A DNA stretch of 64,000 nt from Macrobrachium rosenbergii (Eukaryota; Arthropoda; Malacostraca; Decapoda; Palaemonidae), in NCBI RefSeq assembly GCF_040412425.1, contig NC_089767.1:2177969-2241968 (forward strand). The letters are read 5' to 3'. Each line of letters begins with the position of its first letter. Position 1 is the first letter of the stretch. Shown here piece after piece: positions 26,391 through 52,755 of the stretch. The translations under genes were made by a program, and so were the position numbers. Below the pieces are notes generated by a model. That model was not told the origin of the DNA. It made no database searches and worked only from the letters and a program-made list of their open reading frames with translations.

Positions 26391-27104
26391 TCTCCACTAT
26401 CTTTTATTGTTTCATACTACATGTATGACAAAAATTGTTTTTGCATTAAGACGTCCTCCAGTATTTTTTATGAATATAAGATGTTTCTTCAACATTTTTT
26501 AATATAAATTATGTTCTTGTACAGTGTTTGTCAACAAGGTTATATATCCACTAACTTGAAATTCAGCCTCTTATATAATAACATGTTTTGAGTCAGTTTA
26601 TATATAACAAGTGTAGTGTACAGCATTTGGAAGTTATTGAATTCAGTAAGGTACTTTATCACTCAAAAAGCAGATGCAAGAATTCCCAGACGTCTCTTGC
26701 TGAAGTTTCACAGTTCACCGCTTCCTCCAGGACTGAAAAAGGAAATATTAAATTGATACTGATTTACAGTAATTAAAGTACTGTACATGTACAGTGTAAT
26801 TTAATGTAAGAGTTGGGTAAAGGCACAGAGTTCAATCACTTATCACTAACACGACTGCTTTTCTTACATCACTACAGTAAATTGTGTAGGTCATACAAGG
26901 TATTAGGTTTAATTTTGAGCTAGAGTAATAAGTCTCTCCCTTGCAAAATGCCATCTAACACCCACCTTCCATAAAGGAAGTTGGAATCATACCAGCTTGT
27001 TTACCTAACTATCAATCCTAAAGTGAGGTACTAATTTGATTGAAATGCTATGAATTGGGTTGCTGATGGGTCACGAATTTTGGTAAAACTCACTGGTATG
27101 CATG

Positions 27105-30388: not shown

Positions 30389-30515
30389 CCGAAGATTAAT
30401 GTAGTTTCTGTTATCATTCCCTTCTTTATGGTGAATCCTGCTTTCCATTTCACGATCCCAATCGCTGTATGTCTCCGGTTCATCTTTAGTGCTTGTGGTC
30501 ATCTCTAGAGCGATT
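30389..30515 (-). CDS. CCHa: CCHamide precursor tail exon (last one seen)
   Basis: 127 nt between acceptor CTTCTTTACAG and donor GTGAGC. The first base completes Arg, then 42 codons encode [20 protein letters not shown] and end NYINLR in phase 0. Reading on into the intron soon meets a stop. The terminal exon was not identified. Confidence 0.78.
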
Positions 30516-33500
30516 CTGTAAAGAAGATGAGTATTAGTAACAAAGATGTAATTGTTCATAAAAAAGGTTGGAAATTTATATACAGGATGGAATTTCTGAG
30601 TAAGTTACAAGCAAAGTCCTCTTGAATATGCCCACTAGGTATTTTAGTTACTGAAACTTGTCAGAAATCTCTGAAAATCTTGATTATGAACACATTTCGG
30701 GCATAATATTCAGGTATGGTGACCTTCCCCTGGCTTCCTAAAAGGAACTGTGGACCAATTTGCCTTTCTGACCGTTTTATATCCTTGGTCATTAGTCTTC
30801 ACTGACGTAACAAACCCAGCAGAATCAAGACCATTGTCTGTTCTACAATTGAAATGCCTTCAACTTTAGTCTAGGTAATTTGCTGATTGCTAAGGTCACT
30901 GGACTACAGCCACTAATGTTGAATTACAGCCAGACAAGATGACTAACGTACATTCCGAAACTGACATTTTTTCAGTTTCCCCGAACATATTTCACAGTAC
31001 AGGCATTCTACCATTTAGACGTGGTGTTTACAATTTTGCTCTCACTTTTATTCCATTCCATGTTGTCTGCCATTTTGAGTTTGTAATGTATCATTTTTGC
31101 AAGTTAATCAAACTATAAAAGCAATAAAAGGGAAACACTATTATTGAATTATGAAAAATCTAAATTGCAGATATACTAAAGGATAACAAACAAAGTATTA
31201 ATTATAAGGTAATTGCTTTGCAAAAAAATTGTAGCATGTCCTTAAATATTTCAAGATTGTGGCCAGTTACTCTCAAGAAATCTTACGTCAGTATTTTCAC
31301 CATATTCCTTACCAAGTTACAACACTAACTGGAGAAACAGAATTCTACAAGCTGAGGGGTTCCAATTGGAAGAGCAACATGTGCTGAAAGGTGATATATG
31401 ATTTTATGAAATTTAAGCTTTCAAGCCAAGCACTTGGCACTGCGGCCATTCAGTCCTTAATTCAGTGAAAAGGATTGAAGTGGTTGGACAGCCAGGTAAA
31501 GCCAGCCAGCAAATAAGAGAGATGAAGTACAAGGATCACGAGGTGGAAATTGGAGAAAACCCCCCACCTGCACTAAAAAGTAATGGTTTGAGGTTAGACA
31601 GCAAGACTGATAAAAGAAGTGGGGATGGAGGTAAAGTAAGAGGGTAAAAAAGTAGGTGCAGCTAGGGGTTGGAAGGATGCTGCAAACACCTTTCAGCTAT
31701 GCTTTCAGTGTACCATGTGTTGCACAGACCGCACTACCCTCCATGATGCCTGGTATGGAAATGCAGAAGTAATGAATCTGACAGAAAAGAGAAACAGACT
31801 AAAATAAAATAGATAACAACAACAAATAAGGGACACCATTATGCTATGTGACACTTGTCAGCCAGGTCACCAAAAACGAATTTGTACAGAGTAGAAAGAA
31901 CATTCCGTAACTTGGTCACAGGTGGAACAACGCCCCCTGGTATAAATCCAAGAAAAATAATAGGCCAAATTATTTAAGTTATCATCGTATCTAATACTAT
32001 ATGGTGGATGGTGCAATCTGGGACGATGTGAATACACAGGACTATTAGAATTACAAATGAGTCAGTTGGTGATGAACAGTAACCAAAACATGGAGTAATG
32101 AAAGAAAAATATTTCCTGTGAATAGACAGGCCTCCATAAATCTTGAAAGACTCTCAGTCTACCAGTTTTTTTTTTGGTACAACAGAAGAGATAAGATAGA
32201 CAATGTGTTTTCTAAAAATGAGTACGAACAAGAATAAAACACAGACTTTCAAATGAGTCCTGGCTGATTTAGCTAGAGATTACATAAATGTGAGCAATGA
32301 GAATTGGATTTCAGTACTTAGTTTCTTTCTGATGCCCTACATGGGACTGGGAGTCTAGGAGAACTGGGGTAAGAGAGATAAGTCTGGGAGAACCTGGGTG
32401 AGAGAGAGAGAATAATACCTGATCCAGGATCCAGTCCTGACTTATCGCCAATAAGATACTGTTTTGGATTGATAGCATAGTACAGTACTGACTTGAATTC
32501 AAAACTCTGTAGTTAAGGCTCATTGACAAAACTTGGTTGAACTAACATAACAGCTTTCTTACGTTTAAACAAGATTGCACATTCTTATAAACACTGACCT
32601 CAGGAGGAAAAACTTTAGAAAAGTGGAAAATATATATTGAAAATGTTCTACTTTTCAACAAAATAGATTTCATATTTAGCTGATGAAATATGCAAGAGTG
32701 GAAATATAAATTAATATTCTCTTTTTATAAAGATTCACTGGTTCATGTGATGTAGGGGGAAGGTGGTGAGAAGTCGATATTTTTAAAAAACAGTCCATGG
32801 GTTAAAAAACAAAGTAGATTTGGGTATCCCCAATGCGTAACTCAAGAATCTCATGAAATTCCTTTTTTTCTGAGTAAGAAAACACTGCTAAAAGCTCTTG
32901 TGATTTAAAAAAATGTGGGACATTATTGCAAAATTGAAAATGTTTTTGACTGGCTGAAAGTAATAATGATGACTTGTAAAGTATTCATTTACTGGACTGT
33001 ACAGACCACCTGTTACCCTTTTGGGAGGGTTACTGCTGTCAATGCACCTCACGTGGTGCATTGTAGGCATTACTTAAGGTTCTTTGCAGTGCGCCTTCGG
33101 CCCCTAGCTGAAACCCCTTTCGTACCTTTTACTGCACCTCCTTTCATATTCTCTTTCGTCTCGATCTTACTTCCCACCCTCTCCTAACAACCGATTCATA
33201 GTGCAACTGCGAGGTTTTCCTCCTGTTACGCCTTTCAAACCTTTTACTGTCAATTTCCATTTCAGCGTTGAATGACCTCATAGGTACCAGTGTTTGGCCT
33301 TTGGCCTAAATTCAGTTCAATTCAGACCACCTGTTGGTGTCCAAACTATCCTCCATGCTCTGGAGTGTACTTAAAATATACTGAGAGGACCTTTAATATG
33401 TAGTTCGATAGTTACAACCAAGGTTATATTTCTGGGTATGGCACTGACCCTTGGATCCACCACATGAAATGGGACACCCCCATCAACTTTATATTATACA

Positions 33501-36500
33501 TAAGAGTTTTCATGTCTTATATTAAAAAAGATATTAAAATTGCAGTGCTTTAAAAACCTAAGATCCTAGCTAACGGGTGGACATGAAGGCAGCCGTACAA
33601 GAAGGTCAGTGGCGAGGGATTATAAAATTTAGACCAGAGGCTAAGTGCTGAGACCTACGAGGTTATTGAGCGCTGAAAGGGAAATTGAGAGTGAAGGTGG
33701 TTTGAAAGGTGTAACAGGAGGAAACCCTCGCAGTTGCACTATGAAACAAATGTTAGAAGAGGATGGAAAATAAGATGTAAGACATGAACGGAGGTACAGT
33801 AAAAGTAGTGAACGGAGTTGCAGCTAAAGGCTGAAGGGACGCTGCAAAGGGCCTCAAGTAACGCCTACAGTGCACAGCGTGAGGTGCACTGATGGCACTA
33901 ACCCCCCTATGGAGTAAGGCAAGCCAAGGGTATAAAACTAGGGACAATTCCCAACAGTTTTTCAATATTTCATTACTGAAACGGTGCAATTACACTAATG
34001 CAGCAACTTTTCCGTCTCCGTTCAGGATTCAAATTATGTCATTAAATATCAGTAACAAAGATTTGTCCCACTCTGTGACACAATTGTTTTTACCCGAATA
34101 TTAGAAGCCCCGTAGTTAGCTAGTGCCGTCAATGCACCTCAAGCGGTGCACTGTAGGCATTACTTAAGGTTCTTTGCAGCGCTCCTTCGGCCCCTAGCTG
34201 CAACTCCTTTCGTTCCTTTTACTGAACCTCAATTCATATTCTCATTTTTTCCATCTTGCTATCCACCCTCTCTGACAATTGTTTCATAGTGCAACTGCGA
34301 GGCTTTCCTCCTGTTACACCTTTCAAACATTTCTCACTGAATTTACTCTTCAGCGCTGAATGACCTCATACGCCCCGGCGCTAGGCCTTTTGGCTAAATT
34401 CTATATTCATTCATTCATTCGAATATTAGAAGCTCACCTTCCGTCGTCATCGTCAGTATATTCGTCCCTGACCTCACTGTCGAGGACGGGGGGCTGCGAG
34501 AGGGTCTCGTAATCCTGAGTCGGTGTCCGTCCATTGTTCGGCCTGGGAACAGCAAACATATATTAGCATCTGGATGTCAGGAAAATGAACAGCAAACATG
34601 TTTTAACATCTGGATGTCAGGAAAATGAACAGCAAACATATTTTAGCATCTGGATGTCAGGAAAATGAACAGCAAACATATTTTAGCATCTGGATGTCAG
34701 GAAAATGAACAGCAAACATATTTTAGCATCTGGATGTCACAGCAAACATAAAATGAAAATGAACAAACATATTTTAGCATCTGGATGTCAGGAAAATGAA
34801 CAGCAAACATATTTTAGCATCTGGATGTCAGGAAAATGAACAGCAAACATATTTTAGCATCTGGATGTCAGTACAATGAACAGCAAACGTGTTTTAGCAT
34901 CTGGATGTCAGGAAAATGCAAAATCTGGATGTCAGGAAAAAACATATTTTAGCATCTGGATGTCAGTAAAATGAACAGCAAACGTGTTTTAGCATCTGGA
35001 TGTCAGGAAAATGAACAGCAAACGTGTTTTAGCATCTGGATGTCAGTAAAATGAACAGCAAACGTGTTTTAGCATCTGGATGTCAGGAAAATGAACAGCA
35101 AACATGTTTTAGCATCTGGATGTCAGGAAAATGAACAGCAAACATTTTAGCATCTGGATGTCAGTAAAATGAACAGCAAACGTGTTTTAGCATCTGGATG
35201 TCAGGAAAATGAACAGCAAACGTGTTTTAGCACTTGGATGTCAGTAAAATGAACAGCAAATGTGTTTTAGCATCTGGATGTCAGGAAAATGAACAGCAAA
35301 TATGTTTTAGCATCTGGATGTGAGAAAGGAGTAGTATTCGTGCAGGTAGGAAGTGGCTGTGAGGTGCTCTGTGAAAAGCGCTTGACTTGAGCGATGTTCA
35401 GAGTGAATACGAAGAAGAGGAAGGAAAAAGAGAAACTAAATGCAGTAGAAATTAAATCAAGTAAATTAAATAAAACTATCATACGAACATTATCTCATAA
35501 TTATCGAAGCAGCACGTAAAGATGGAACACTAAATAAATTACTGGAGAAGGATGAATCAACCCAAATCAAGAGAGAGTAAGCAACCTGCAGACACTGCTC
35601 TGGGGAAGTTGATGATGAAGGAACTTGCTGTGAAATGTGTGACGTATGGTTCCATTATGAATGTTCAAGTATCGAGGTCAGATACACACCCATACTTCGT
35701 AGTGATAACATATTGTACATTTGTAATAATTGCATGGGGCCTGAACAAAGAACACACAAAAAACTCATTGAAGATGAACTTGAAGAAATAAAAGGAAACG
35801 CAGAGATGTTAACAAAGCTGATTCAGGTTTCGGCTCAGAAAACTAGTGACGTAATGATCAACATAGATGAAATCCAAAACAAAATTGACAATGTTGATAA
35901 AGATGTAAAGACCATGACAAACATGGACAAAACTTATGCTGAATCACTAAAGACAAAAAAAGTGCTTCTGATCAAATCTACAAACGAAGAGAGCACAGCA
36001 GCTAATGAAAAGAGACAAATTATGAGTAAATAACGGCGCCAGTTGAACAGATTAAAACGACAAGAGATGGACACTTATTTGTGAGATTTCCAGACAGGAA
36101 AAACTTAGAAAAGGCAAAAATGGAGATTCAGAAAATCAACAATATATCAGTAAATGAGATGGGTAAACTTAAACCAAAAATAAAAGTGGTCTATGTCCCG
36201 AAGGATGATGACATTGTCGATAACATTGTAAAGAAAAATCCATGGATAGGTAACCTCTTTTCTGAAAATGACGACCTGAAAATTGTAAAGGAAATGATAG
36301 CCGAAGATGACAAATATAAACACTATATCATCAAATGCACACCAAATATACAAAGGGCTATCTATGATAGAGGTAACAAATTGTGTAAATTGTATAGCCG
36401 TTGCAAAGTATACGACTGTTACATGCCCTACCAATGCTATAAATGTCAGGAATTAGGTCACAGCTCAACAAATTGTAGACATGACCAAGCTTGCCCTGGA

Positions 36501-39500
36501 TGCGGTGAAAATCACAAATCGAATGTGCTAGCAGCATCTTCGAGTGTAAAAATTGTGTAAAGAAAGGTCATAGTGATACTAAATATAAAACATATGATGG
36601 CAGTAAGTACACAATTAAGTGTCAAAGGTGAAAAATAATACGGATCACGGCTTTGACTAATATCTTCCATGCAATTTAATACAAGAAGAAAGCAAATCTA
36701 AAAAGAACTACAGACTCTCCTGTTCTGCAGGAGCTACGATACTGACGAGAAAACACTGAAGGATAATTATAAAATATAAGAAGCACCTTATTTTGAAAAC
36801 GTACAAGGGCTTGCCAGAGGAGGGCTGTACATAAAACCAAACAAAGTGAAACAAAGTGAAAGTGAAAATGAGCAGCAAACATGTTTTAGCACTTGGATAT
36901 CAATAAAATGAACAGCAAACATGTTTTAGCACTTGGATATCAATAAAATGAACAGCAAACATGTTTTAGCACTTGGATATCAGTAAAATAAAATGACTTG
37001 GATATCAATAAAATGAACAGCAAACATGTTTTAGCACTTGGATATCAGTAAAATGAACAGCAAACATGTTTTAGCACTTGGATATCAGTAAAATGAACAG
37101 CAAACATGTTTTAGCACTTGGATATCAATAAAATGAACAGCAAACATGTTTTAGCACTTGGATATCAGTAAAATGAACAGCAAACATGTTTTAGCACTTG
37201 GATATCAGTAAAATGAACAGCAAACATGTTTTAGCACTTGGATATCAGTAAAATGAACAGCAAACATGTTTTACTTGGATATCAGTAAAATGAACAGCAA
37301 ACATGGACTTGGATATCAGTAAAATGACAGCAAACAGCAAACATGCAAACATGTTTTAGCACTTGGATATCAGTAAAATGAACAGCAAACATGTTTTAGC
37401 ACTTGGATAAAATGAACAGCAAACATGTTTTAGCACTTGGATATCAGTAAAATGAACAGCAAACATGTTTTAGCACTTGGATATCAGTAAAATGAACAGC
37501 AAACATGTTTTAGCACTTGGATATCAGTAAAATGAACAGCAAACATGTTTTAGCACTTGGATATCATGTTTTAGCACTTGGATATCAGTAAAATGAACAG
37601 CAAACATGTTTTAGCACTTGGATATCAGTAAAATGAACAGCAAACATGTTTTAGCACTTGGATATCAGTAAAATGAACAGCAAACATGTTTTAGCACTTG
37701 GATATCAGTAAAATGAACAGCAAACATGTTTTAGCACTCACTTGGATATCAGTAAAAAGCAAACATGTTTTAGCACTTGGATATCAGTAAAATGAACAGC
37801 AAACATGTTTTAGCAAACATGTTTTGGATATCAATAAAATGAACAGCAAAAACATGTTTTGAACAGCAAACATGTTTTAGCACTTGGATATCAGTAAAAT
37901 GAACAGCAAACATGTTTTAGCACTTGGATATCAGTAAAATGAACAGCAAACATGTTTTAGCACTTGGATATCAGTAAAATGAACAGCAAACATGTTTTAG
38001 CACCTAGATGTCAGTAAAATGAACAGCAAACAGCAAACATGTTTTGTTTTAGCACTTGGATATCAGTAAAATGAACAGCAAACATGTTTTAGCACTTGGA
38101 TATCAGTAAAATGAACAGCAAACATGTTTTAGCACTGGATATCAGTAAAATGAACAGCAAACATGTTTTGGATATCAGTAAAATGAACAGCAAACATGTT
38201 TTAGATGATATCAGTAAAATGCAAACATGTTTTCACTTGGATATCAGTAAAAGGATCACTATAATGTATTCATAGTATTTTTTCATTAATATGGAACATA
38301 TGAAGATTTGTTTTAGAAGGCAAAGGAGTAAAAATTTAGCAGTTAAACTACTAGGTACTTCATATTTTGGAATATATATAAAATTTAGGCCAAAGGCCAA
38401 GTGGTGGGACTTATGAGGTCATTCAGTGCTGAAGGGGAAATGGAAAGTAAGAGTGTTTGAAAGGTGTAACAGGAGGAAAACATAGCAGTTCCAATGTAAT
38501 ACAACTGTTAGAGAGGGTGGAAAGTCAGATGGAAGAAAGAGAATATGAACGGAAGTACAGTGAAAGGAATGAAAGAGGTTGCAGCTAGGGTCCGAAGGGA
38601 CACTGCAAAGATACCTTAAGTAGTGTCTACAGTGCACCAAGTGAGGTGCACTGACGGCACTAACCCCCCCTAACGGGGATACTTCATATTGAACATGCGT
38701 ACTCCGTTTATGAAGCTGATGTACAGTGTGAGATAAGTGCTGATGTTAATATAAATTACATGTGTGCTAAGCATTTTTAGTTCATATAAAGCATCACAGA
38801 GCAAAGAAGACAGGAAAAAGAAGAAGCATTCTTTCTGTACCTTACATACTGATGATGCAAATCGGCGCCCTGAGCAGCATCGTCCTTGGAGTGACTAGGA
38901 CTGACCACTGGGCTCTCCAGCAGTCTGTACAAAATGCGGATCATCCGCAATTCGGGAATCGAGGTATGCAGTGAGGAGGATCTCTTGCCATGGCCTGAAA
39001 TTCACACAATTTTTTATCAATGAATACGAAGACGAAATATGGATGCAACACTAAAATCATACCCTAAAGACAAGATAAATGAGCCTATGCAAACTCAAGA
39101 ACGAATTAAAAGGCCTGATGGAAGGCGTCACCACAGCACAAACATAAAAGCGACAAAAATAATAAAATAGGAATAACCCATTTCGAGAGTTAAATGATTT
39201 CCTATTAATGATACACTTTGTTTTATATCATATATTTTATATCATATACTAAGATTAATTCACTGTCAGTTCGCTTTAGATCAAGCCAGCCCGTGCTGGC
39301 ACGGGCTCTTGCTCCACGGCAGCCCGTAACATTAAATTCGTTTAGCTTCATGACCTTTGATTATATACATTGTGAAGGACTTCAAATGTCTGATGTCAAG
39401 ATTTTGCTGTATTGTATTACCAATTCACAAATCCATTCTGGGGTTATGCGCTTTATCAACTGGTACACAAATCAGGAACCACGTAGGGAGGTAGTGTCAT

Positions 39501-42500
39501 CAGTGGCACCTCAAGCGGTGCACTGTAGGCATTAATTACGGTTTGCAGCAACCCTTCGGCCCCTAGCTGCAACCCTATCATTCCTATTACTGTACCTCCT
39601 TTCATATTCTCTTCCTTCCATCTTACTTTCCACCCTCTCTTCACAACTGTTTCATAGTGCAACTGCTTTGAGGTTTTCCTCCTGTTACACCTTTCAAACC
39701 TTTACTGTCAATTTCCCTTTCAGCGGTGAATGACCTCATAAGGTCCCAGCGATTGGCCTTTGGCCTAAATTCTATATTCCTTCCTTCCTTCATTTATCAA
39801 CTGGCACGAAAATCAGAAAGCGCCACAGAGGTGCATGAAATGTTATTGACAAAACTACTACTTAATTCCCTTGCAAAACACTACTTATCCAACACACCTT
39901 GAGAACGTTTGCTCGAAAAGAATGCTTAAAAAAATAAGTCGGTGTGGCCTGTAATGACGTAAAGATCAGAGGGTGTTTGCAGCTATAAAAGTTCAAGCCA
40001 ATTCTATTTTTGAGTGGTCTTCGAGTTTTGTATACGGACACCATAATGATATACAAGGTAGGAGGGAAGGGGGCGACAGGTTTGCAGTCAAGGATCCTTA
40101 ATGTATCAGTTGAGTTATTTGAAACTGACATGAAACTGAGTAATAAACAATAACTGTCACAAGCTCTAGCATATAAGATTTAAACTGCTTTTTTTTAGTG
40201 AGTGTACCATTTCTGAAATTGGTCGTCTGCTAAATGAAATGCAGTATATCATGAAGTACAGTATATCATCGAGTCTCTCTCTCTCTCTCTCTCTCTCAGC
40301 AAAAAAGATAAATGGTATAATTATAGAAATACAAAACAAATAGACAAGCATGTTATATATAAAAAATATTTCCTCATTCTCTCTCTCTCTCTCTCAGTAT
40401 CATTAAATGTCTTTTCAGCACTTCGAAGACCAAATTCTGTAGTGGAAATAAAATTCTTATCTTGATACACCTTCATTACTACTCGAAGACATTCCTAGGT
40501 AATTTTTTTCCCTCAAATTATCTGGGTGAAATCTCCGATTATCTCGGTAAATTTCTAAAATTATCTCTATATATTCTCAATTTATCTCGGTAAATTTCTC
40601 AAATTATCTCGGTAAATTCTCAATTTATCTCAGTAATTTCTGAAATTATTGAGGCAAATTTCTCAATTTCGGTAAATTTCTTAAATCACCTATGTAAATT
40701 CTTAAATCATCTCGGTAAACTCTAAAATCATCTCATTAAATTCTCAAATAATCTCGGTAAATTTCTCAAATCATTGAGGTAAATTCTCAAATGATCTCGG
40801 CAAATTTCTCATCTCGGTAAATTCTCGGTATTATTTCACTTATGGACATCCATTGCTTTCAACATAAAAAAGGTTTTCTGTTGTATTATGATGTGATTTG
40901 AATGATTTTGAGGTTTATTTCCATCGCAAATGAATTTATCTTCGGCAAATGATATACTGTATACAAAATTAATAAAATTACGACTTGTAATTTCATAGCT
41001 AATACGGCAAAACTGTGTCAACTGATTACAGTTTTGCCGTATTAGCTATGGAGAGGGGGTGCAGTATTCTGACAAGTCGTAATTTATTAATTTTGTATAC
41101 AGTATATCATTTGCCGGGGAAGGATAAGTATTCATTTGCGATGGAAATAAATCAAAATCATGTAAATCACATCATAATACAACAGAAAAACCTATATTTT
41201 ATGTTGAAAGCAATTAATGTCCATAAGTGAAATAATACCAAATTCTCAAATAATTTAGTAAATTCTCAAATAATTTAGTAAATTCTCAAATTGTCTCAGT
41301 AAATTTCTTAAATTATCTCGGTAAATTCTCAATTTATCTCGATAAATTCCCAATTCATCTCTGTAGATTCTCGATTTATCTCTGTAAATTCACAATTTAT
41401 CTCGATAAATGCTCACATGATCTCGGTAAATTTCTCAAATTATCGAAGTAAATTCTCAAATAACGTCGGTAAATTTCTTAAATCACCTCAGTAAATTCTC
41501 AAATTATATCGGTAAACTCTCAAGTGATCTCGGTAATTTCTCACATGTTCTCAGGAAATTTCACAAATGATCTCACCTGTACTGCAGTATTTAACCCTTT
41601 GCTACTATTGCCCTTCCCAGCCTCAGTCTCAGACTCGTCTGATTTAATTCATAAAATATAAAAATAAGTGAATAATAAAAATACGAAAACCATTCGGGCG
41701 TTTAAAGAATTTTAAAACAAAATTTCAAAATGCTACTTAACTTATTCTGAATTTTAATATACCATTTCAGTGTGTCTATGTGGAAACACGAGTAAATGTA
41801 TTTGTGTGTGTGTTCCAGTATGAGGGCATATGCCTTTGTGCATTTTTTTTTATCTCATTTTCATTCATTTATCACCGTACTGAATGACCTATTTGGCCTC
41901 AGTGCTTGGCCTCTGGGCTAGACCTGGTATTTCATGTAAATCCTTCGAGCTAGCCCTATGAGAGCTGATAGTCAGCTCAGTGGTCTGGTTAAACTATTTT
42001 AATAATAATAATACTTATGTAACGTTTTTAATGCAGTGTCTCCTATACTCTCATTACACTTCCATTCTTTCAAAATTTTACTGTGACTCTGTTCACATCG
42101 GCATAACATCTGAACAATCGAAAAATTAAATGGAAGACTACCACCGCGCCCCCTTGGTTCGGTACTAACTGTTTACGTGCAAAATGGGGACCATGTTTAG
42201 TACTTGCCCCTTGGGAATGAACGTAAAAACATAAATAAAAGACGGTAAATATCATAAACATAAACAGAAGGCATAAACATACAAAAAATCATAAATAAAT
42301 GTCGGTAAATACTCCGGTCGGCGACTTGCCGGAACCAGGCCGCGGTAGTGTTCTTCACTTTTACCTCGAAACCAACTCCCGCGTGCTCCAGGTTACTTTT
42401 CCACAAGACCAGAAGCTGAACAAGTTCAACTTCACATGGCTCACCCAACCTTATCTTCCTCAGATTTTTGCGATACAGCACTTAAATTCGGTTTTGTTTT

Positions 42501-43057
42501 CGCTTCATCACTGGGGATAACAGCCGGGTCACTTTTTAATGCTCAGTCTCATTTGTCCAAGTTATTCTTTATCTCGGCTGGCTAATATTCTGTTTACATC
42601 TGAAGTATCTGCACCTCTTGCTTAAATAATGGTTGACGGACGTACACAGCACAAAAATGACAGTAATATACTATGCAGCTCAGTAACACCGTTGAGATAC
42701 TGGAAGAGGACTCCCCAACCCAACCCCAACAAGGGATACGACTACAGCCCTTGTTTCACGCCATTGCGTCCACGATGGAAAGAAGCTGTCGTACGGGGCA
42801 GAAAAAAAAAACACACACACACAAAACAATTGCACACAAAATGGTAGTATTGATACATCAACTTTGTAAACTACCCTCGGAAAGGGGGCGTGGCTCGGTT
42901 AGGATGTTCCCTTTAACCCGATTTAAACGGCAAAGGAATGCGCAATTTGCTAAAAAAAAAAAAAATAACGTACGTCTGGCATTCGTGACAAGGTTGAACT
43001 GAGTGAAAACGGAGACAGAATTTCAATAGTTGCAACCCAGAAATCCATTTTTTACTG

Positions 43058-43129
<72 letters not shown>

Positions 43130-43581
43130 ACGTTTCCCCTATTCAGGAATAATGAGTTGTGTATTAAGTCATATTTTTACAGTTTCTCTTTGATGTTATT
43201 AATATTTGTCACTGTGAGAGAGAATATTCATTTTTCTCCATCCATTAATAAGTTTAGTTTCTTTTCTAGGACAATAAAATACCTAACTTAAAGCCATCAG
43301 TAAAGAAAATGCTGCATTGTTTTGGGTAATGTATTCAGAGCAATTTCCGTAGTGGCTTCTTTAAACAGAACCGTAATTGTAATTACATATAATTTACATC
43401 GTTTATGTATTATAAGTCATTCAGAGGTTGTCTGTATGGGTTATGTACGCACGTGAAAATACCCTATACAGTGTATTAGACACTTGCTTATAAGGGTTTT
43501 GAGCATATGCTATTTTTAACTTAAGAGGGACCAAACCCCCACTTGAACGTTAATAAAATGTCATTACTTAAAAGAGATTAT

Positions 43582-43616
<35 letters not shown>

Positions 43617-43619
43617 TAT

Positions 43620-43702
<83 letters not shown>

Positions 43703-43809
43703 TTCTTTTGAAGTCAACCGCATTATTTGAGATTAACTTTTTAGTTAGGCTTTGAATCAGTCTATACTTCTTTTTCTCTTCGGATGAGCTTCTCAGAAAT
43801 AAAAGAAAT

Positions 43810-43884
<75 letters not shown>

Positions 43885-44228
43885 TATATAATTTATATAT
43901 GATTCTTTCAGATGTATAGGAACAAAGGTACCTCATACAGGCTCACTTGATCTGGGATTTACTGAAAGACTAAATAAGGAACATCAAACAATGTGCAGCC
44001 TCAACATTTTTGGAAATCCGACAGACTGAATTAGACTGCACCTTGCTCTATTAAGATCTGTATGGCTATACGGAAATGAATAAGACTAAACGAGACAAAG
44101 CGTGAACATCAACAGATGAAAAGGAAACATGAATAAATATGAGAAATAGCACATAAGTACTGGAACAGTAAAAGCAGGTAACAGCTACTCACCCCCTAGA
44201 CAAGCTGGGCCGTAGTTCAGACATCCTT
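30389..44228 (-). CDS. CCHa: CCHamide-type neuropeptide precursor gene, partial (four exons)
   Basis: Four spliced exons on the - strand (44193-44228, 38841-38994, 34438-34542, 30389-30515) join in one frame with intron phases 1, 2 and 2 and canonical GT-AG ends. The joined frame starts [16 protein letters not shown]: two cysteines six residues apart, Tyr-Gly in the loop, then Gly-Gly-His followed by a Gly amide donor and a Lys-Arg cleavage site. This is the pattern of arthropod CCHamide, a disulfide-looped C-terminally amidated peptide acting on a bombesin-receptor-like GPCR in feeding and growth signalling (known for insects). About 120 residues of acidic, repeat-free tail follow. The signal-peptide exon should lie above 44228 and may be outside the window; the stop exon lies below 30389 and was not identified. 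Loop position six is Pro, where known CCHamides carry His. Confidence 0.85.
31411..31745 (-). repeat. Diverged relative of family S
   Basis: The ends resemble family S (AGCCAAGCACTTGGCACTGC; AGGTGCAGCTAGGGGTTGGA), but the middle differs (GGTTGGACAGCCAGGTAAAG). Confidence 0.6.
33024..33322 (+). repeat. Family S copy
   Basis: Full-length: head hairpin TGCACCTCACGTGGTGCA through TGAATGACCTCATAGGTACC. Confidence 0.85.
33622..33910 (-). repeat. Family S copy (inverted)
   Basis: Full-length on the - strand, about 300 bp from the preceding copy and facing it. Confidence 0.85.
34107..34420 (+). repeat. Family S copy next to a CCHamide exon
   Basis: Full-length copy ending about 20 bp before the donor of the exon at 34438 (that is, in the downstream intron of the - strand gene). 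Confidence 0.85.
34438..34542 (-). CDS. CCHa: CCHamide precursor tail exon (acidic)
   Basis: 105 nt between acceptor TGTTCCCAG and donor GTGAGC, phase 2 in and phase 2 out. Encodes [18 protein letters not shown] and ends EYTDDDDG. The acceptor and its upstream tract are the first unit of a 40-bp satellite that runs on from 34543. Confidence 0.8.
34543..35335. repeat. 40-bp satellite, variant A (about 20 units)
   Basis: The unit reads AACAGCAAACATATTTTAGC then ATCTGGATGTCAGGAAAATG on the + strand, period 40. It begins directly at the splice acceptor of the CCHamide exon at 34438-34542. Units near the far end carry CACTTGGATGTCAGTAAAAT, intermediate with variant B. Confidence 0.95.
35577..36632 (+). 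pseudogene. Non-LTR retrotransposon ORF1 fragment (PHD finger, zinc knuckles)
   Basis: A PHD-type C4HC3 finger (CRHC, CEMC, WFHYEC, CNNC) lies at about 35588-35740. It is followed by a coiled-coil-like charged stretch, then, after a frame change near 36030, an RNA-binding-like region with [13 protein letters not shown]. Zinc knuckles follow ([27 protein letters not shown]) across another frame change near 36525. This layout is known for ORF1 proteins of CR1/Jockey-group LINEs, which bind element RNA. No ORF2 follows. It sits between the two satellite blocks, antisense to the CCHamide gene. Confidence 0.7.
36862..38255. repeat. 40-bp satellite, variant B (about 34 units)
   Basis: The unit AACAGCAAACATGTTTTAGC then ACTTGGATATCAGTAAAATG is homologous to variant A, more uniform, with several partial units near 37300, 37740 and 38030. 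Confidence 0.95.
38384..38675 (-). repeat. Family S copy
   Basis: Full-length on the - strand, in a CCHamide intron. Confidence 0.85.
38841..38994 (-). CDS. CCHa: CCHamide exon with amidation and cleavage site
   Basis: 154 nt between acceptor TTTCAG and donor GTACAG. The first two bases complete Gly, then His-Gly-Lys-Arg ends the mature peptide, followed by [20 protein letters not shown] and a Ser/Asp-rich stretch. It ends in phase 2. An upstream alternative donor (GTAAGG, six bases earlier) would give phase 0 and a stop in the next exon, so the GTACAG donor is preferred. Confidence 0.82.
39482..39785 (+). repeat. Family S copy
   Basis: Full-length with head GGCACCTCAAGCGGTGCACT and the usual tail. 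Confidence 0.85.
40495..40826. repeat. ~20-bp degenerate tandem repeat, left block
   Basis: Units of AAATT(A)TCTCGGTAAATTCTC, diverged, run up to the foldback element. Confidence 0.85.
40827..41239. mobile_element. 413-bp foldback element (near-perfect palindrome)
   Basis: Arms 40827-41016 and 41028-41239 are inverted copies with an 11-base loop. The right arm has a ~20-base insertion (GAGAGGGGGTGCAGTATTC). The arms start GGTATTATTTCAC. AAATTCTC lies directly on both outer sides, an 8-bp target duplication or a chance match in the surrounding repeat. No coding capacity. Confidence 0.9.
41240..41580. repeat. ~20-bp degenerate tandem repeat, right block
   Basis: Same unit family and orientation as 40495-40826, resuming after the foldback element. 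Confidence 0.85.
41853..41935 (+). repeat. Family S tail fragment
   Basis: Only CTGAATGACCTATTTGGCCT...CAGTGCTTGGCCTC remains. Confidence 0.5.
41940..42000 (+). repeat. Tail fragment of the second tRNA-derived SINE
   Basis: ATCCTTCGAGCTAGCCCTAT and TCAGCTCAGTGGTCTGGT match the end of 61380-61692. Confidence 0.6.
42160..42260 (+). repeat. Dispersed repeat shared with 16995-17110
   Basis: Second copy of the AAAATGGGGACC...GCCCCTTGGG segment. A weak further echo (TCATAAATAAACGTCGG) lies near 63107. Confidence 0.55.
42270..43050. other. Unassigned sequence in the first visible CCHamide intron
   Basis: An open - strand stretch ([20 protein letters not shown]) near 42310-42450 ends at GAG|GTAAAA but would disrupt the phase-1 join between the microexon and the next exon. 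No function assigned. Confidence 0.4.
43058..43126. repeat. (GA)n microsatellite
   Basis: About 33 GA units. Confidence 0.97.
43588..43895. repeat. (CA)n-(TA)n and second (TA)n microsatellite
   Basis: CA units at 43588-43613, TA to 43700, unique sequence, then TA again at 43813-43895. In the first intron-side region upstream of the CCHamide exon at 38841. Confidence 0.95.
44193..44228 (-). CDS. CCHa: CCHamide microexon encoding the cysteine loop
   Basis: 36-nt exon with a strong acceptor (polypyrimidine TTTTTTCTCTCCACAG ending at 44229) and donor GTGAGT. It starts with the last two bases of a codon (AA, so probably Lys or Glu) and ends with the first base of Gly. It encodes [11 protein letters not shown]. 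Phase matches the next exon exactly. Read in another frame it would also be open, but that frame meets a stop in the following exon. Confidence 0.83.
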
Positions 44229-44264
44229 CTGTGGAGAGAAAAAATATAATATTATAATGGAGGG

Positions 44265-44540
44265 AAGGAATACAGAATTTAGGCCAAGGGCCAAGCGCTG
44301 GGAATTATGAGGTAATTCAGCGCTAAAAGGGAAATTGACAGTAAGAAAGTCTGAAAGGTGTAACAGGAGGAAAACCTAGCAGTTGCACTGGGAAACAATT
44401 GTTAGAGAGGGTGGAAAGTCAGATGGAAGAAAGAGAATATGAACGGAGGTACAGTAAAAGGAATGGAAGAGGTTGCAGCTAGGGGCCTAAGGGACGCTGC
44501 AAAGAACTTTAAGTAATACCTACAGTGCACCCCTACGGGG
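44265..44540 (-). repeat. Family S copy near the CCHamide microexon
   Basis: - strand copy, 37 bp upstream (in gene orientation) of the microexon acceptor. Its head is slightly truncated. Confidence 0.85.
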
Positions 44541-44959
44541 ATAATATTATTATGACAAATAATGAGTATATAAAAAAACGACAGCGATTCCTCTTGTATT
44601 GGTGACTATTACCACTGTGGCATGAATAACAGAATCTACTTTAGTACATTCCTATTTTAGGCACATATTTGCACGCACATAAATACAGACGACATGAAAA
44701 CATACGGTACGCACAGATGAACAGTAGAATTTTCGTTCATATGAGTGAAAAATATCATAAACCAATAATAAAAAAGATAGTCTTTTCTAGTACTGAACTG
44801 GAAAGAAACAACTCTGAGTCTAGTTTTAAAAATGAAAGCTTTTGTAAGAAGATGATTATCAGTCTAAGCATGTGTAAACTCGATCCATTAACTTCAGAGG
44901 AAATGTGTAAAATTTATATACAGATTTTAAGAAAGATAGAGGGCATGCCCAGTACAATA

Positions 44960-45282
44960 TGCAGGGGTCCTTTATTCCCCACACAGTTGGACTATGGAAC
45001 AGCCTCCCTTCAGAGGATGTCGTGCAGTTGGAACTTCTTCAGAAGTTCAAGCGAAGGTGCAATGCATTACTACCCTAATATAATTCCTGTATTCAGTAAT
45101 TTACTTACATTTTTATAATGATTTATTAATTTATTTTTTTTCTTTTGAATAAGTGATCTCTTCTTTCTATATTCCCCATTACCTACTGTTACTTCTTTCT
45201 AATGAACGTCATATTCTTTGGAAGCTTGAATTTCAAGTCAATGGCTCCTGTGGGGGTGTTACACATGAATAGGGTTCATCTT

Positions 45283-45345
<63 letters not shown>
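44960..45345 (+). pseudogene. LINE 3' end with (AAT)n tail, copy 1
   Basis: Encodes the tail HTVGLWNSLPSEDVVQLELL ending in a stop near 45070, typical of LINE ORF2 C-termini. A 3'UTR with GGAAGCTTGAATTTCAAGTC and GTTCATCTTCTG follows, then (AAT)n at 45287-45345. Confidence 0.7.
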
Positions 45346-45346
<1 letters not shown>

Positions 45347-45349
45347 TAC

Positions 45350-46205
45350 GAGGAAAAGTAGGAGACCACCTGCAAATACAAACATTTTTTGTAAATAAAG
45401 TGCTTGACTTTATAATGAGTGCTATAGCTCCACCCTCTCCTACCTGTCAGGTAAGAATATTTATTTTCCAATGGTCTGTATGTTCGTTTGTATATACTGT
45501 CCCCCTGGCACATATATTGTAAATTTCTACTAATATGTAACAGTTCTCTGAAAATGTCTTAGCTACAAAGATGAAACCAGTCAGGATTTACATGCAAAAT
45601 TTCATTTTCCCTGAGGTGAAGCTGCATATATCAGTCACTTGTAAGTGTGATTACAATCATGAAAACATAAAATGGAATAACAACCGACATGTAAAGCAGT
45701 GAAGCTTAGCGGTCGAATTCTGGCTCAGCCAGACAATCAGGCGCGACTCTGAGGTCACGTGACTTAGACGTCATGCACCAACTCTCGTCTGCTGCCCGGA
45801 CGTTACTGAGTATCATCTCCGCGTTGGTAAAATGGAAACAAAACTGGGTAATATGAATACATCCACATCATACATGAGTTCACCTCCCACCATACGAAAT
45901 TACCAAGGCATGAGATCAATCAGTAATATCAGACATGTTGAGGAAAATATTGGAAGTTGATTTACCGCCATTAAATCATTCGTATGCTGTCGCGCTCACA
46001 GGAATCCTGATGCAAGGGTTGTGAATACAAAAATGGGACCTTTAATTATGCCAAGATGTGTGACAGTAAATAGTTATAACGCAACTTTCTTTTGACAGGT
46101 CCACGAGCTATAAAGGCAAATGCTACGTGTGGTCGCGGTGGTTACGCATTAGATTATCTCAGCTTTTGTCCGTCTTTTAAAACCTGTTACCAACACAATG
46201 GGTGA
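45350..46205. other. Unassigned sequence upstream of the CCHamide microexon
   Basis: No exon or repeat recognised. Confidence 0.5.
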
Positions 46206-46209
46206 TATA

Positions 46210-46500
46210 TGTTGTAATGTGAAGGAGAAGGCTAGGGAGGGAAGCTCGTCTGAGATACTATGGCCATGTGATATGGAGAGAGGAGGTGGAGCCAATCAAG
46301 AGAGCTAAGAACATGCCAGTGATGGGGAGGAGGAGGAGGAGTGTGGGGCGCCAGCGGATCAGAAGGATGGATGTGGTGAGGAGGGATACGGGTGAGGTGG
46401 GACTGGGGGAGGAAGATGCAAGGAGTAGAAATAGATAGAGAAAGTTGACTCCAGCGGCCGACCCTCCCTGCTATACAGTGGGACTAATAAGGTCGAAAGA
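46210..46500 (+). pseudogene. RTE-like LINE C-terminal fragment
   Basis: The translation has EARLRYYGHVIWREEVEPIK, MPVMGRRRRSVGRQRIRRMD and VVRRDTGEVGLGEEDARSR, then a stop and PAADP. This is the conserved C-terminus of RTE-type LINEs. It ends at GGGACTAATAAGGTCGAAAG, which begins the following tandem array. Confidence 0.75.
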
Positions 46501-46948
46501 AGAAGAAGAAGAAGGGACTAATAAGGTCAAAAGAAGAAGAAGAAGGGACTAATAAAGTCGAAAGAAGAAGATGAAGAATGGACTAATAAGGTCGGAAGAA
46601 GAAGAAGGGACCAATAAAGTCGAAAGAAGAAGAAGATGAAGAAGGGACTAATAAGGTCGAAAGAAGAAGAAGAAGAAGAAGAAGAAGAAGAAGAAGAAGG
46701 AACTAACAAGGTCGAAAGAAGAAGATGAAAAAGGGACTAATAAGGTCGAAAGAAGAAGAAGAAGAAGAAGAAGGAACTAACAAGGTCGAAAGAAGAAGAA
46801 GAAGGGACTAATAAGGTCGAAAGAAGAAGAAGAAGAAGGGGCTAATAAGGTCGAAAGAAGAAGAAGAAGAAGGGGCTAATAAGGTCAAAAGAAGAAGAAG
46901 AAGAAGAAGGGGCTAATAAGGTCGAAAGAAGAAGAAGAAGAAGAAGAC
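46480..46948 (+). repeat. Tandem amplification of a LINE tail, (GAA)-rich
   Basis: About 14 units of GGGACTAATAAGGTCGAAAG plus variable (AAG)n. The unit equals the last bases of the adjoining LINE fragment. Confidence 0.9.
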
Positions 46949-46949
46949 C

Positions 46950-47930
46950 AACACAGTCCGCTGAACAACTTGCTCAAAGCCAAGACGCCACCACACAAGT
47001 TATTTTTTATTTATATATGTTCTGGGTGTTCTAAATCTTTTGATAGACTCGTTAGCCGAGGTTCAGTGCAATCTGACGAGACGGTAGCACCCGCTTTTAA
47101 TGGCGAACATGAAACTGATCCCAACTTGTGTTTCAATTTCACTCGTCAATCATTAAAAAAAATCGGCCAGGACATAATCAAGATGGAAGGGCGGTTACTG
47201 CGGAGGATATCGTGGTCATTAGTGCCATGATATAAACTTTAATTACAGCCATAACAAGCGACAAATAATTGGGGCCGATGAAAGTTTAAAACCCTCATCT
47301 ATAAAAAATATAACAATGATACAGTCAAGTGGTTTAGTTTATCATTAGTACAACCATATAAAAAACATTGACAGTAATGTGCTCTGCTACGCAATGGCTG
47401 ACATAAATGGCAATAAACAATATCTAATTGGAAATGGCGGTTTATTGCAGTATTGCACGATGCAAAAAATTGATACATCTATATTACCCATTTTGGGAAA
47501 TATTTTTTTCCTTTAGGTATGAAAATCTCAATTTTAGCTGACTTAAATTTCGTCGATAGAAAACATTTTAGCTTATTTTTCCTTACGTTTTACAGTCGAG
47601 TATCACGGCATAAATAGGTTTAAACTATTTATAATTAATAAAATGACAATTTATCTTTGTCTCTCACTGTTCAGTGCAATCATGTATCCCTAATACTTTA
47701 TTTCTAAAGAGTATTTTTTGACGGCCTAGTGAATAAATTTTCGGTCTTCGCTAATTGTTAATTTCAACTTGTTGTTTTGACTTCTTAAATGATGCGCAAC
47801 TGATGAGCTTTATGGTGACACTGAAATCAGCAACCTAGAGGGAAAATTAACCTTACATAGATCGATCAGGGACAAAAAAATCACTCAGGCCAAACAGAGT
47901 CAGTGAAAGGTGAGTACCCTGTGGTATTAC
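46950..47930. other. Unassigned AT-rich sequence
   Basis: No domain, splice-bounded exon or repeat recognised. Confidence 0.5.
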
Positions 47931-47934
47931 TCCC

Positions 47935-48440
47935 AAAAGATATTTCAATACACAGTGGCTTTTATACACTGGGATTATTCTGTCATGTTCATGTTATTAA
48001 TAACGACAAAAATAAATATAACAGCAATAAAAAGGTATCATCACAATTTCAAGATATAATTATTATATTATAAACTAAAAAATAAAGAAAAAGGCATTTG
48101 CTCCCAAAATATATATAAACAAAATACATATAAATACACACTGGATTTTATATGGTAAGATTAGTCTGTCATATTCTTATTATTAATAATGGCAAAAACA
48201 AACTTAACATCAATAAAAAGGTATCCTCACTGTCTTAAGATATAATTGCTATTAAATTTATAATTATACATAAAAAGATAATAAAGAAACAGGTAGGTTT
48301 TATACAGTAATATTATTCTGTCGTACTCTTATTATTAACAATGACAAAAATAAACATCACAGCAATAAAAATGCATCCTTAACTTTCCAAGATTTTTATT
48401 ATTATTATATTTATTTAAGTATATATTAAAAGATAAATGA
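47935..48440. repeat. Three diverged ~165-bp tandem repeats
   Basis: Each unit has TTTTATACAnTG, TTATTCTGTC(A/G)T, TATTATTAA(T/C)AATG(A/G)CAAAA, CAGCAATAAAAA and AAGATAT. Confidence 0.75.
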
Positions 48441-48543
48441 AGAAAGAGGCACAAAAAAATCGAGGCATGACTGAAAATTTGACGGTGTCTCTGGAGCCAG
48501 TATCCCAATCGGAAACAAATATCCTGATGTCCCAATGAGGCCC

Positions 48544-48544
<1 letters not shown>

Positions 48545-48600
<56 letters not shown>

Positions 48601-48728
48601 TCGGGTTGTTTCTTGTTTCCCAACCCGCTAACCCTGAAATCTTGTGGGAACAAAACAAAATACTTTGATGTAACATGTAAGGAAGGAAGAGGTCCATTGC
48701 GCTGACTAGTTTTGCTTGTGTTATTCTT

Positions 48729-48783
<55 letters not shown>

Positions 48784-49047
48784 GGTTTCTCTACTGAAAA
48801 TATTGGGGGATTTCTCACTTATTTTCCTTTACTCAAAGAATGTTATTTGAATTTTCAAATATCTCTCTCGCTCTACTTTGAGGATTTTAATTTATTTTGT
48901 CTTTGTCTGAGTAATACCGAGATTATAAAAACTCTCTCTCTCCAACAACGTCCAAGAAATATTGTTTAAAATTTAAAATGTCTCTCTCGCTCTACTTTGA
49001 GGATTTTAATTTATTCTGTCTTTGAGTAATGCTGAGATTATCTCTCA

Positions 49048-49110
<63 letters not shown>
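48545..49110. repeat. (CT)n, (GA)n, (CT)n microsatellite cluster
   Basis: CT at 48545-48598, GA at 48731-48780 and CT at 49050-49108. TCTCTCTCGCTCTACTTTGA with flanking sequence is also duplicated (48860 and 48978). Confidence 0.95.
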
Positions 49111-49112
<2 letters not shown>

Positions 49113-49419
49113 AATGTTCAGACTTAGTCAGCAAAATCTTAATTTTTCACCACACATTTTCCATCTCATTATCTTTCTTTACGTCATTTTCAGTACCAAA
49201 ATCGATGTTAATCAAGTTATGCTGACGCAGCAGTATCACGTAAACACTTATTAGCGCCAGAGATAAAAAAAAAAAAACAACTCCTAAGTAAGCAAGCAGC
49301 ATAAATTTGGGTACAAAAAAGGTAGGAGAATATTTTAAAGAGCTGCGCAGTAATGGCATGAGAGAATTTAGAAGCGGGGTTAATGTTTAATCCAAACTTA
49401 CTCTCGACATTCTGAACTT

Positions 49420-49831
49420 AAAAAACAAGTATAAAAGGCGCTGAAGTTTCTTCGGCGCAATTGAGTTTTCTATGCAGCCGCTACAGCGTATAATTAAGGC
49501 CACCGAAAATGGATCTATCTTTCGGTGGTTTCGGTACAATGCTCTATGAGCCGCGGCCCATGAATCTTTAATCTCGGCCCGGTGGTGGCCTATCCTGTAT
49601 CGTTGCCAGAAGCACGATCGTGGCTAACTTTACCTTTAAACAAAATAAAATCTACTGAGGAGGCTAGAGGACTGTAATTTGGTATGTTTGATGACTGGAG
49701 GGTGGATGATCAACATCCCAATTTGCAGCCCTCTAGCCTCAGTAGTTTTTAAGATCTGAGGGCGGACAGAAAAAGTGCGGACGGACAAACAAAGCCGGCA
49801 CAACAGTTTTCTTCTACAGAAAACTAAAAAT
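49420..49831 (+). repeat. Multi-hairpin dispersed element, copy 3
   Basis: The best preserved 5' stem (GGCGCTGAAGTTTCTTCGGC) and all three hairpins are present. Confidence 0.8.
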
Positions 49832-50107
49832 CAAATAAAAATGCAGAGACTCCATAATAACAGAGGAAGATTAAACCATTACAAGGGGAAAATATTTCTC
49901 ACATATGTGATTATCTGACACTTACACTACCCTCTAATATTACTGTGATAAACCAAGACGATCTTTACTCGAAAGAATATATATAATTTTCTAGCTGTCT
50001 TTGAACTACATTTTTTTTTCTTTACACAATTAGACAATATACCTTTAGGAACCTTGCCAGTGAAATAGTGGTCTTTCGACTTGTTCTGTAAGAATATGTA
50101 CACATTG

Positions 50108-50110
<3 letters not shown>

Positions 50111-50169
<59 letters not shown>
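50111..50169. repeat. (AAT)n microsatellite
   Basis: About 19 units. The preceding sequence differs from the LINE tails, so its origin is unclear. Confidence 0.95.
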
Positions 50170-50171
<2 letters not shown>

Positions 50172-50644
50172 CCCACGCAAAAGCATATACCGTACATCTT
50201 TCCGAAGATAAAGATGACGACCTCATTTTCCAAGAGGGTCATACATCATTTATAATAAGAGTCACGTCTGTCCATCTGCACGCAAATGAGTTCCTCAACA
50301 GGTGGTTACACGACCCCCTACGCCACAGAGGTCGCATTTTCATTCCTAGAGTTCAATCCTTCCTCAGATGAGCAGCGTTACATTTGCACACACAATCACA
50401 AGTCATGAACACATCTTGATGGTGGGTCTTTCTCAGCTTGCACAGACGACAATAAAATCACAAACAAGGGATTTATTTTTCAGATGGAGAGGCCTTAACC
50501 TATAAAATGACCACAGATTCGTCGGTAAGACAATGAAGTCTTTACATAAGGGGTAAGAATGCTGGCCCAAACAAGCTACAAATTATCACTTCGAAATAGC
50601 TATAAACTATTCAGCAACAAAGTCAAGTATTCACTAACAAGGGA

Positions 50645-50908
50645 ATATAGAATTTAGGCCAAAGACCAAGCGCTGGGACCTATGGGGTCGTTCAGCGCTG
50701 AAACAGAAATTGACAGTAAAAGGTTGAAAGGTGCAACATGAGGAAAACCTCAAAGCAGTTGGCCTGTGAAACAATTGTTAGGAGAGGCTGGAAAGTCTGT
50801 TGGAAAAGAATATGAACGGAGGTACAGTAAAAGGAATGACAGGGGTTGCAGCGAGGGGCTGAAGGGACGTTGCAACGAACCGTAAGTAATGCCTACAGTG
50901 CACCGGTA
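50645..50908 (-). repeat. Family S copy
   Basis: - strand copy; body and tail clear, head shortened. Confidence 0.8.
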
Positions 50909-51354
50909 CTCATTAACAATAACATAATTAGTTCCACAAAGAAGGTCGTGAAATCCTAAGAAATAGGCCTATAAATTCCCCAACAGCAGAGGTCGAGCTT
51001 TCACCAACAAAACAATAAATTCCCCAATGAATGAAACTCCCAATAAACGTAGATATGAACTGCTCGACAACAAAGGCAAAGCATTCAGGGACAAGGACCA
51101 CAAATTCGTGAAATTTCCTTAAATTATGAAGACTATGAACTCCTATCAGTAAAGGCTCTGCATTCTTGAGAAAGTTAGCAAATTACCCAGCAACCAGGAA
51201 CATGAATTCCAAAGGAATAGGGACATGACCTCCCCAACAGTAGAGTCAAGTATCCACCAACATCGGCAACGATTTCGCCACAAAGAGGATCAAAATTCTC
51301 ATCAGTAAGAGTCATTCAGTAAGAATCCTCAGTAAGAATCATGCATCCCAAAAA

Positions 51355-51688
51355 ACCTGGGCCATAGCCTTCTCCCAGAGGATGTCGTGCAGTGTGATCT
51401 GTGAACTTCAGAAGTTCAAGTGAAGATGCAATACATTACTACCCTAATACTATTCTCCTTGTATTTTAATATTTGACTTACCAACTTTTTTTTATTCATT
51501 TATTTGTCAGTTTGTTAATTTATCTGTTTTTCTAATAAATGATCTCCTCCTTTCTGTGTTTCCATTACCTTCTCTGTTGCTTCTTTCGAATGAACATCAT
51601 TATATTCTTTGGAAGCTTCATTTTTTTTCAAGTCAAGGGCCCTTTGGTGGGCTTGTTCCATATGAATAGGTTTTTCATCTTCAGTACA

Positions 51689-51719
<31 letters not shown>

Positions 51720-51745
51720 GTTTAATAATAATAATAATAATAATA
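51355..51745 (+). pseudogene. LINE 3' end with (AAT)n tail, copy 2
   Basis: Same family as 44960-45345 (CAGAGGATGTCGTGCAGT), with stops in the coding tail, then the shared 3'UTR and (AAT)n. Confidence 0.7.
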
Positions 51746-51845
51746 AATTTACCAGCAAAGATTATTTTATTTTCGAGATGAAAGATACCCTATGGCTGGT
51801 CTAAGGCTCTGAAAATACAGGGATATAATATATACACGGATATGT

Positions 51846-51848
<3 letters not shown>

Positions 51849-51941
<93 letters not shown>
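51849..51941. repeat. (TA)n microsatellite
   Basis: About 46 units. Confidence 0.97.
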
Positions 51942-51943
<2 letters not shown>

Positions 51944-52499: not shown

Positions 52500-52674
52500 A
52501 TGCAATAAAACTATTTTGCCTTTATTTTTTCTTTTTTTAATAAGTAATACCTCTACTTTCTGTATTTACCTTTATTTCCTCTTACTTTTTCCTAATGAAC
52601 ACCATATTCTTTGGAAGCTTGAATTTCAAGTCAGTGGCCCCTTTGGTGGGCTTCATCCATATAGAGTTCATCTT

Positions 52675-52710: not shown

Positions 52711-52715
<5 letters not shown>

Positions 52716-52723
52716 CATCTGAC

Positions 52724-52755
<32 letters not shown>

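Follow-up and report, generated by a model that had tools for sequence, protein, structure and literature searches.

Gene structure on the minus strand

Does the minus strand of the window, i.e. the whole stretch of 64,000 nucleotides of Macrobrachium rosenbergii DNA that was analysed, hold a CCHamide neuropeptide gene spread over short exons, and if so, which of the decapod CCHamides does it encode? The features on which the answer rests are as follows.

44193..44228, minus strand: exon 1, flanked by ccacag/GTGAGT; 11 residues identical in both orthologues
38841..38994, minus strand: exon 2, flanked by tttcag/GTACAG; 96.3-bit tblastn match
38981..38992, minus strand: His-Gly-Lys-Arg codons (amidation donor and dibasic cleavage site), read by hand
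34438..34542, minus strand: exon 3, tail coding, flanked by cccag/GTGAGC; 60.8-bit tblastn match
30389..30515, minus strand: exon 4, tail coding, flanked by tttacag/GTGAGC; 86.7-bit tblastn match
26715..26732, minus strand: exon 5, last coding, SWRKR and stop; tttttcag acceptor before TCCTGGAGGAAGCGGTGA; both orthologues end in SWRKR
26403..26408, minus strand: AATAAA, candidate poly(A) signal by pattern only, about 307 bases past the stop

The coordinates of exons 1-4 had been given in the original prediction and were found to be exact to the base, with AG before and GT after each of the four; the introns between them measure 5198, 4298 and 3922 bases. Exon 1 contributes two bases that complete a Glu codon (as in the orthologues), 11 codons and the first base of Gly12, and exon 2 carries the rest of Gly12, His13, the amide-donor Gly, the Lys-Arg cleavage site and the start of the tail. 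The exons join in phase, as had been claimed, one of the three frames of the join being open over 140 codons. All four exons of the proposed four-exon gene are thus present, but a fifth coding exon with the stop had been missed. It lies 3656 bases from exon 4 and reads TCC TGG AGG AAG CGG TGA (26732-26715, minus strand), after which the 3′ untranslated region follows, and with it the frame comes to 145 codons and a stop. The candidate poly(A) signal is not distinctive because ATTAAA occurs at 26503 and a further AATAAA at 26228. The tail had been described as acidic, which is fair but holds only mildly (25 D+E versus 17 K+R in 129 residues, exon 5 counted).

Orthologues in two prawn genera

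The protein search that had been proposed for the joined frame was carried out with the 140 residues against a database of about 5.8 billion proteins (13 candidates, cut-off E<=10), and it returned full-length prawn precursors from two genera. The protein of Macrobrachium nipponense (LOC135210546, P0001, 176 aa) matched at E 2.7e-78 with 91% over 100% of the query, and that of Palaemon carinicauda ('uncharacterized protein isoform X2', P0002, 175 aa) matched end to end with 64%. P0001 is the same precursor with the same peptide and the same SWRKR end, whereas it has one residue fewer after GKR and keeps 116 of the 128 aligned tail residues, 12 being different. P0002 has the same end too, but its tail agrees in only 82 of 128 residues and it is without the six residues ARRAVK before the peptide. 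The peptide with its GKR is the same in all three palaemonids (16 of 16 residues). On searching the window by tblastn with the M. nipponense protein, four exons were recovered in the right order and phase, at 96.3, 86.7, 60.8 and 36.2 bits, the last match extending over three intron bases. The gene had been called hidden, and this is apt in that both orthologues are deposited only as 'uncharacterized protein', but the proteins themselves were already on deposit for M. nipponense and Palaemon; the present reading gives them a name and assigns them a hormone. A Pfam search gave no match for the gene. It may be noted that PF27941.1 is given as the Pfam entry of the joined-frame and profile-search matches and was not reported by our Pfam search. 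Rfam at gathering thresholds also gave no match for the gene, and two matches from a PDB search (E 0.54 and 0.88) were taken as chance.

Family membership and the altered ring

The CCHamide motif is given as XCXX(W/Y/F)GXXCXGXHamide (PMC7212414), and the joined frame contains it, with six residues between the two Cys (C-LNYGPA-C), followed by the amide-donor Gly and the dibasic site. The CCHamide signature that had been pointed out therefore stands, in that the peptide fits the published family motif and the joined frame has full-length orthologues among prawn precursors. A narrower decapod motif, XCXX(Y/F)GHSCXGAH (PMC8449533), does not fit the peptide, which has GPA in the ring and GGH at the end. 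This lowers only the claim of an 'ordinary decapod CCHamide', because the broader motif does not require GHS or GAH; for the excitatory peptide/CCHamide family the ring position is described as 'often a histidine' (PMC6617912). A profile built of five rows (P0001, P0002, the translation of exon 1 and, with GKR added, two Homarus peptides of PMC4696782) found 137 proteins at E<=10 from 894 candidates. Among the best 120 of the 137, 17 had E<=1e-3. These include two rows of the query itself and three insect precursors that carry the name CCHamide-1 (P0008, P0011, P0013); chelicerate proteins named CCHamide-2 reached only E 0.04 to 0.13 among the matches listed. Insect CCHamide-1 and -2 share with the prawn peptide the two Cys six residues apart, the Tyr/Phe-Gly and the Gly-(Ala/Gly)-His-amide, but have a GHS ring in the hallmark sequences (PMC3788761) or GHV in Drosophila CCHamide-2, i.e. 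HV at the altered sites (PMC3533232).

The unusual part of the gene is this departure from the usual GHSC loop, which is GPAC here; the original prediction had passed over it. On scanning the best 120 of the 137 proteins, the strict motif pattern fits 119, of which 115, among the matches listed, have HS in the two positions that separate the aromatic-Gly from the second Cys, three have PA (the two palaemonids and a spider protein, P0042) and one has HA (a spider protein, P0057); these counts describe the matches listed and not all arthropods, the query having held both PA and HS rows. The sole failure of the strict pattern among the 120 listed (P0029) also has HS. P0042, from Nephila pilipes and named 'Spider venom protein' in UniRef, has a GPA loop like the prawns, presumably acquired independently, and P0057 is a CCHamide-like protein of Oedothorax gibbosus with a GHA loop. 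For comparison within the shrimps, Lysmata vittata is a caridean and Halocaridina rubra an atyid. Both have the ordinary GHS loop (PMC7212414 for the former, P0032 for the latter), and the change from GHS to GPA probably arose on the way to the palaemonids, as far as these few species indicate. A search with residues 1-40 for further palaemonids carrying the GPA loop gave only the two known proteins (2 candidates). The altered peptide looks as if it has been maintained by selection, since all 16 residues of peptide plus GKR agree in three palaemonids, whereas in Palaemon only 82 of 128 tail positions do. The string GCLNYGPAC gave no literature match; the variant may nevertheless be published, as the supplement of PMC4888303 may hold the M. 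rosenbergii sequence. In the main text of the M. rosenbergii neuropeptidome (PMC4449106), no word starts with 'cch' or 'gclnyg'.

For Drosophila, the disulfide and YGH are named as features common to both ligands, and according to the same authors the disulfide and the amide are both needed (PMC3533232). Since the His of the YGH motif is absent here, activation of a CCHamide receptor is not to be taken for granted. The gene may then be a CCHamide by descent whose product, having lost YGH, no longer uses the usual receptor and instead has another receptor partner or has taken on a new role. The retention of HS at both changed sites in 115 of the 119 motif-bearing proteins listed speaks for this, as do the constancy of the variant in three palaemonids while the tail drifts and the presence in M. 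nipponense of a second CCHamide with an ordinary loop (P0037), which could cover the old role. Yet both Cys, the Tyr-Gly and the Gly-His with its amide donor are all kept, and the second of the changed sites varies in the Drosophila CCHamide-2, which is receptor-active (PMC3533232). On balance we regard such a change of receptor or role as possible and rather doubtful. With similar reserve, we offer the idea that palaemonids rebuilt one of their two CCHamides (GHS to GPA, GAH to GGH) and fixed the change across Macrobrachium and Palaemon, presumably together with a matching change of one CCHamide receptor, so that the two CCHamide channels might be more separate than in other decapods. In any case the gene is of a known kind and its ligand is altered; the changed ring offers a natural test of the role of the YGH motif, with the gene, the amide donor and the ring as before and the His absent in all three palaemonids. 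If the receptor has changed too, the prawns would offer a clear example of co-evolution between receptor and ligand, for a peptide hormone that is tied to feeding in other arthropods.

Assignment to a decapod CCHamide type

Decapods are known to have CCHamide paralogues, from a survey that covers M. rosenbergii (PMC4888303), and two kinds were found among the 29 proteins that we read. The first kind of precursor is long, at 189-252 aa in the eight decapod models whose start is signal-like, and carries GCLNYGHSCLGAH; the second is short (113-121 aa, n=5) and carries SCSQ(F/Y)GHSCFGAH. Members of the first, GCLNYG type are the Homarus HRVLKGGCLNYGHSCLGAHamide (PMC4696782), the Lysmata vittata VPKGGCLNYGHSCLGAHamide (PMC7212414) and P0032 of Halocaridina rubra. 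The prawn gene is like them in the GCLNYG start, the two Cys and the G-x-H with its amide donor, M. nipponense sharing with Homarus also a short basic stretch before the peptide (ARRAVK and HRVLK), and it differs from them in the ring (GPA here versus GHS), in GGH for GAH and in a tail that does not align above chance. With the second, SCSQFG type (P0037 of M. nipponense, P0081 of Procambarus) it shares the family motif, but these are separate, short precursors with another peptide; in M. nipponense P0037 carries SCSQYGHSCFGAH.

The N-terminus was compared with only those proteins that have at least 16 residues before the motif. Residues 1-32 of the M. nipponense orthologue found their best non-palaemonid matches in GCLNYG-type precursors of Homarus, Eriocheir, Portunus, Scylla and Penaeus chinensis, followed by a tick protein and then Procambarus; the SCSQFG type is absent from the 20 rows at E<=10. 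With the Palaemon N-terminus, the best non-palaemonid matches were a sea-spider protein and insect proteins, and no decapod of the first kind appeared. The tail gives no such signal. The window tail was tested, along with 500 shuffled tails, on a profile of the tails of 12 GCLNYG-type precursors (11 from decapods, 1 from krill) and ranked 57 of 502, i.e. not above chance, the orthologue tails of P0001 and P0002 ranking 267 and 62; a profile of five SCSQFG-type tails showed no relation to the window tail either. A W-x-R-R end, which comes near to the WRKR of the prawn gene, is present in 6 of 11 aligned non-palaemonid precursors.

Three things make the gene most likely the palaemonid orthologue of the GCLNYG type: its peptide, the N-terminus of M. 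nipponense and the fact that the other type exists as a protein of its own. Judging from sequence comparison, we put at about 0.95 the probability that this is a working CCHamide gene of a palaemonid prawn, most likely orthologous to the decapod GCLNYGHSCLGAHamide gene. We have left it without a CCHamide number, as the numbering of decapod CCHamides is inconsistent between the papers and records seen. The longest contigs of the paired types are equally long in M. nipponense (P0001/P0037), Procambarus clarkii (P0012/P0081) and Panulirus ornatus (P0007/P0088), and in these three species the two types probably lie on one chromosome. Speculatively, the decapod pair might be an old linked duplication. 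Two CCHamide-1 genes have also been reported from the centipede Strigamia (PMC4244043).

Alternative readings of the locus

The end of exon 2 could lie five bases earlier, with the donor after CAGTAT and before gtaagg, so that some of the transcripts would have a different tail. This donor, CAGTATgtaagg, is good-looking by eye and would select a frame that stops within exon 3. Both deposited proteins, however, follow the AG/gtacag frame and read VRP(S/N)N across the junction, and we consider use of the earlier donor improbable. Even less credible is a decaying copy of a CCHamide gene. A pseudogene might show altered loop residues and a tail without recognisable likeness to those of other decapods, as here, but there is no stop or frameshift in the five exons, all their splice sites are intact, the peptide is identical in three species, and the same full-length protein exists in M. 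nipponense and Palaemon. As to a chance string of short open frames, it is true, as had been stated, that no long ORF marks the gene (none of the 45 stop-to-stop ORFs of at least 110 aa in the window covers exons 1-4), but the existence of end-to-end orthologues, and a top match of only 24.3 bits over 100 dinucleotide-shuffled windows (92 of which gave any match) versus 96.3 bits here, leave this reading a negligible probability. The best other tblastn match in the real window scored 26.9 bits and lies within a repeat.

Upstream exons and the signal peptide

Both orthologues have a start that is signal-like by eye, MNS(M/L)KTC...CSPVMA, which in M. nipponense is followed by ARRAVK and then EGCLNYG, and there is one peptide copy only in the joined frame and in each of them. 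The window gave no credible match to the signal-peptide exon or to the ARRAVK stretch, whether searched with the M. nipponense N-terminus (tblastn) or with codon patterns (for the former MNSMK, NSMKTC, MKTC, CSPVM and SPVMA). On scanning 44229-64000 (minus strand) for hydrophobic ATG frames with a phase-1 GT, nine candidates were obtained, none of which resembles the orthologues by eye; the scan works with thresholds, so an exon unlike those of the orthologues could escape it. As the signal peptide and ARRAVK were not found in the window, the first exon or exons probably lie beyond base 64000, and if the signal-peptide exon is outside the window the upstream intron would be at least 19,772 bases long. 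Since isoform X2 of P. carinicauda is without ARRAVK and six residues correspond to 18 bases, a simple reading is that ARRAVK is an optional exon of 18 bases, isoform X2 perhaps being a splice form without it. The Homarus counterpart (P0003) has HRVLK at this position. For the nemertean excitatory peptide, two splice forms are reported whose difference lies immediately N-terminal to the peptide (PMC6617912).

Proposed processing and function

By analogy with the family, a signal peptide encoded upstream of the window would send the precursor to the secretory path, where a prohormone convertase would cut after Lys-Arg, a carboxypeptidase would remove the basic residues and the Gly would become the C-terminal amide. 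The two Cys are predicted to close the ring of the amidated mature peptide, which may start with Glu or a short N-terminal extension, depending on upstream splicing; the mildly acidic tail would be a spacer. The predicted target, again from family membership, is a bombesin-receptor-like GPCR (the CCHamide receptor), and the role would probably be gut-brain control of feeding. Insect CCHamide has been linked to feeding and to the digestive system (PMC6617912), and a CCHamide gene of Litopenaeus vannamei is reported to be expressed in a distinct pattern in the thoracic ganglion (PMC11673531). In palaemonids the otherwise conserved His-Ser of the ring would have been replaced by Pro-Ala and the following Ala by Gly, the altered ligand then staying unchanged in the three palaemonids.

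Repeats and mobile elements in the window

The intron between exons 2 and 3 contains two large arrays of one 40-base minisatellite (34547-35321 and 36865-38252), the near one reaching to 4 bases from the exon 3 acceptor. By eye, the branch-point-like GCTAA and the pyrimidine tract of exon 3 look like the last minisatellite unit. On the sense strand, the near array has ATCCAG 19 times and ATCCAA once, the far array 1 and 32 times, i.e. the acceptor-like AG is kept in the near copies and mostly absent from the far ones. It may be speculated that the array grew out of the exon 3 splice site itself. Between the arrays (35581-36560, plus strand) lie two frames that encode a PHD finger and a CCHC zinc knuckle, the latter falling just under the Pfam cut-off, and we take these frames to resemble ORF1 of a LINE. 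A high-GC block at 3559-7832 (minus strand; GC 0.61 in the 4001-8000 bin versus 0.33-0.43 in the other 15 bins) contains one frame for reverse transcriptase (5515-6774) and one for RT-RNaseH (5028-5588), and Pfam matched none of three further frames tested in it; the block looks like an LTR retrotransposon. A reverse transcriptase fragment at 54900-55295 (minus strand; RVT_1, E 4.2e-11) is LINE-like by eye, and Pfam recognised nothing in the frame next to it (54236-54952). A repeat of 67-70 bases forms two arrays, at 61693-63025 and 60677-61380, that have stretches of sequence in common, and many long AG, AT and AAT runs occur across the window.
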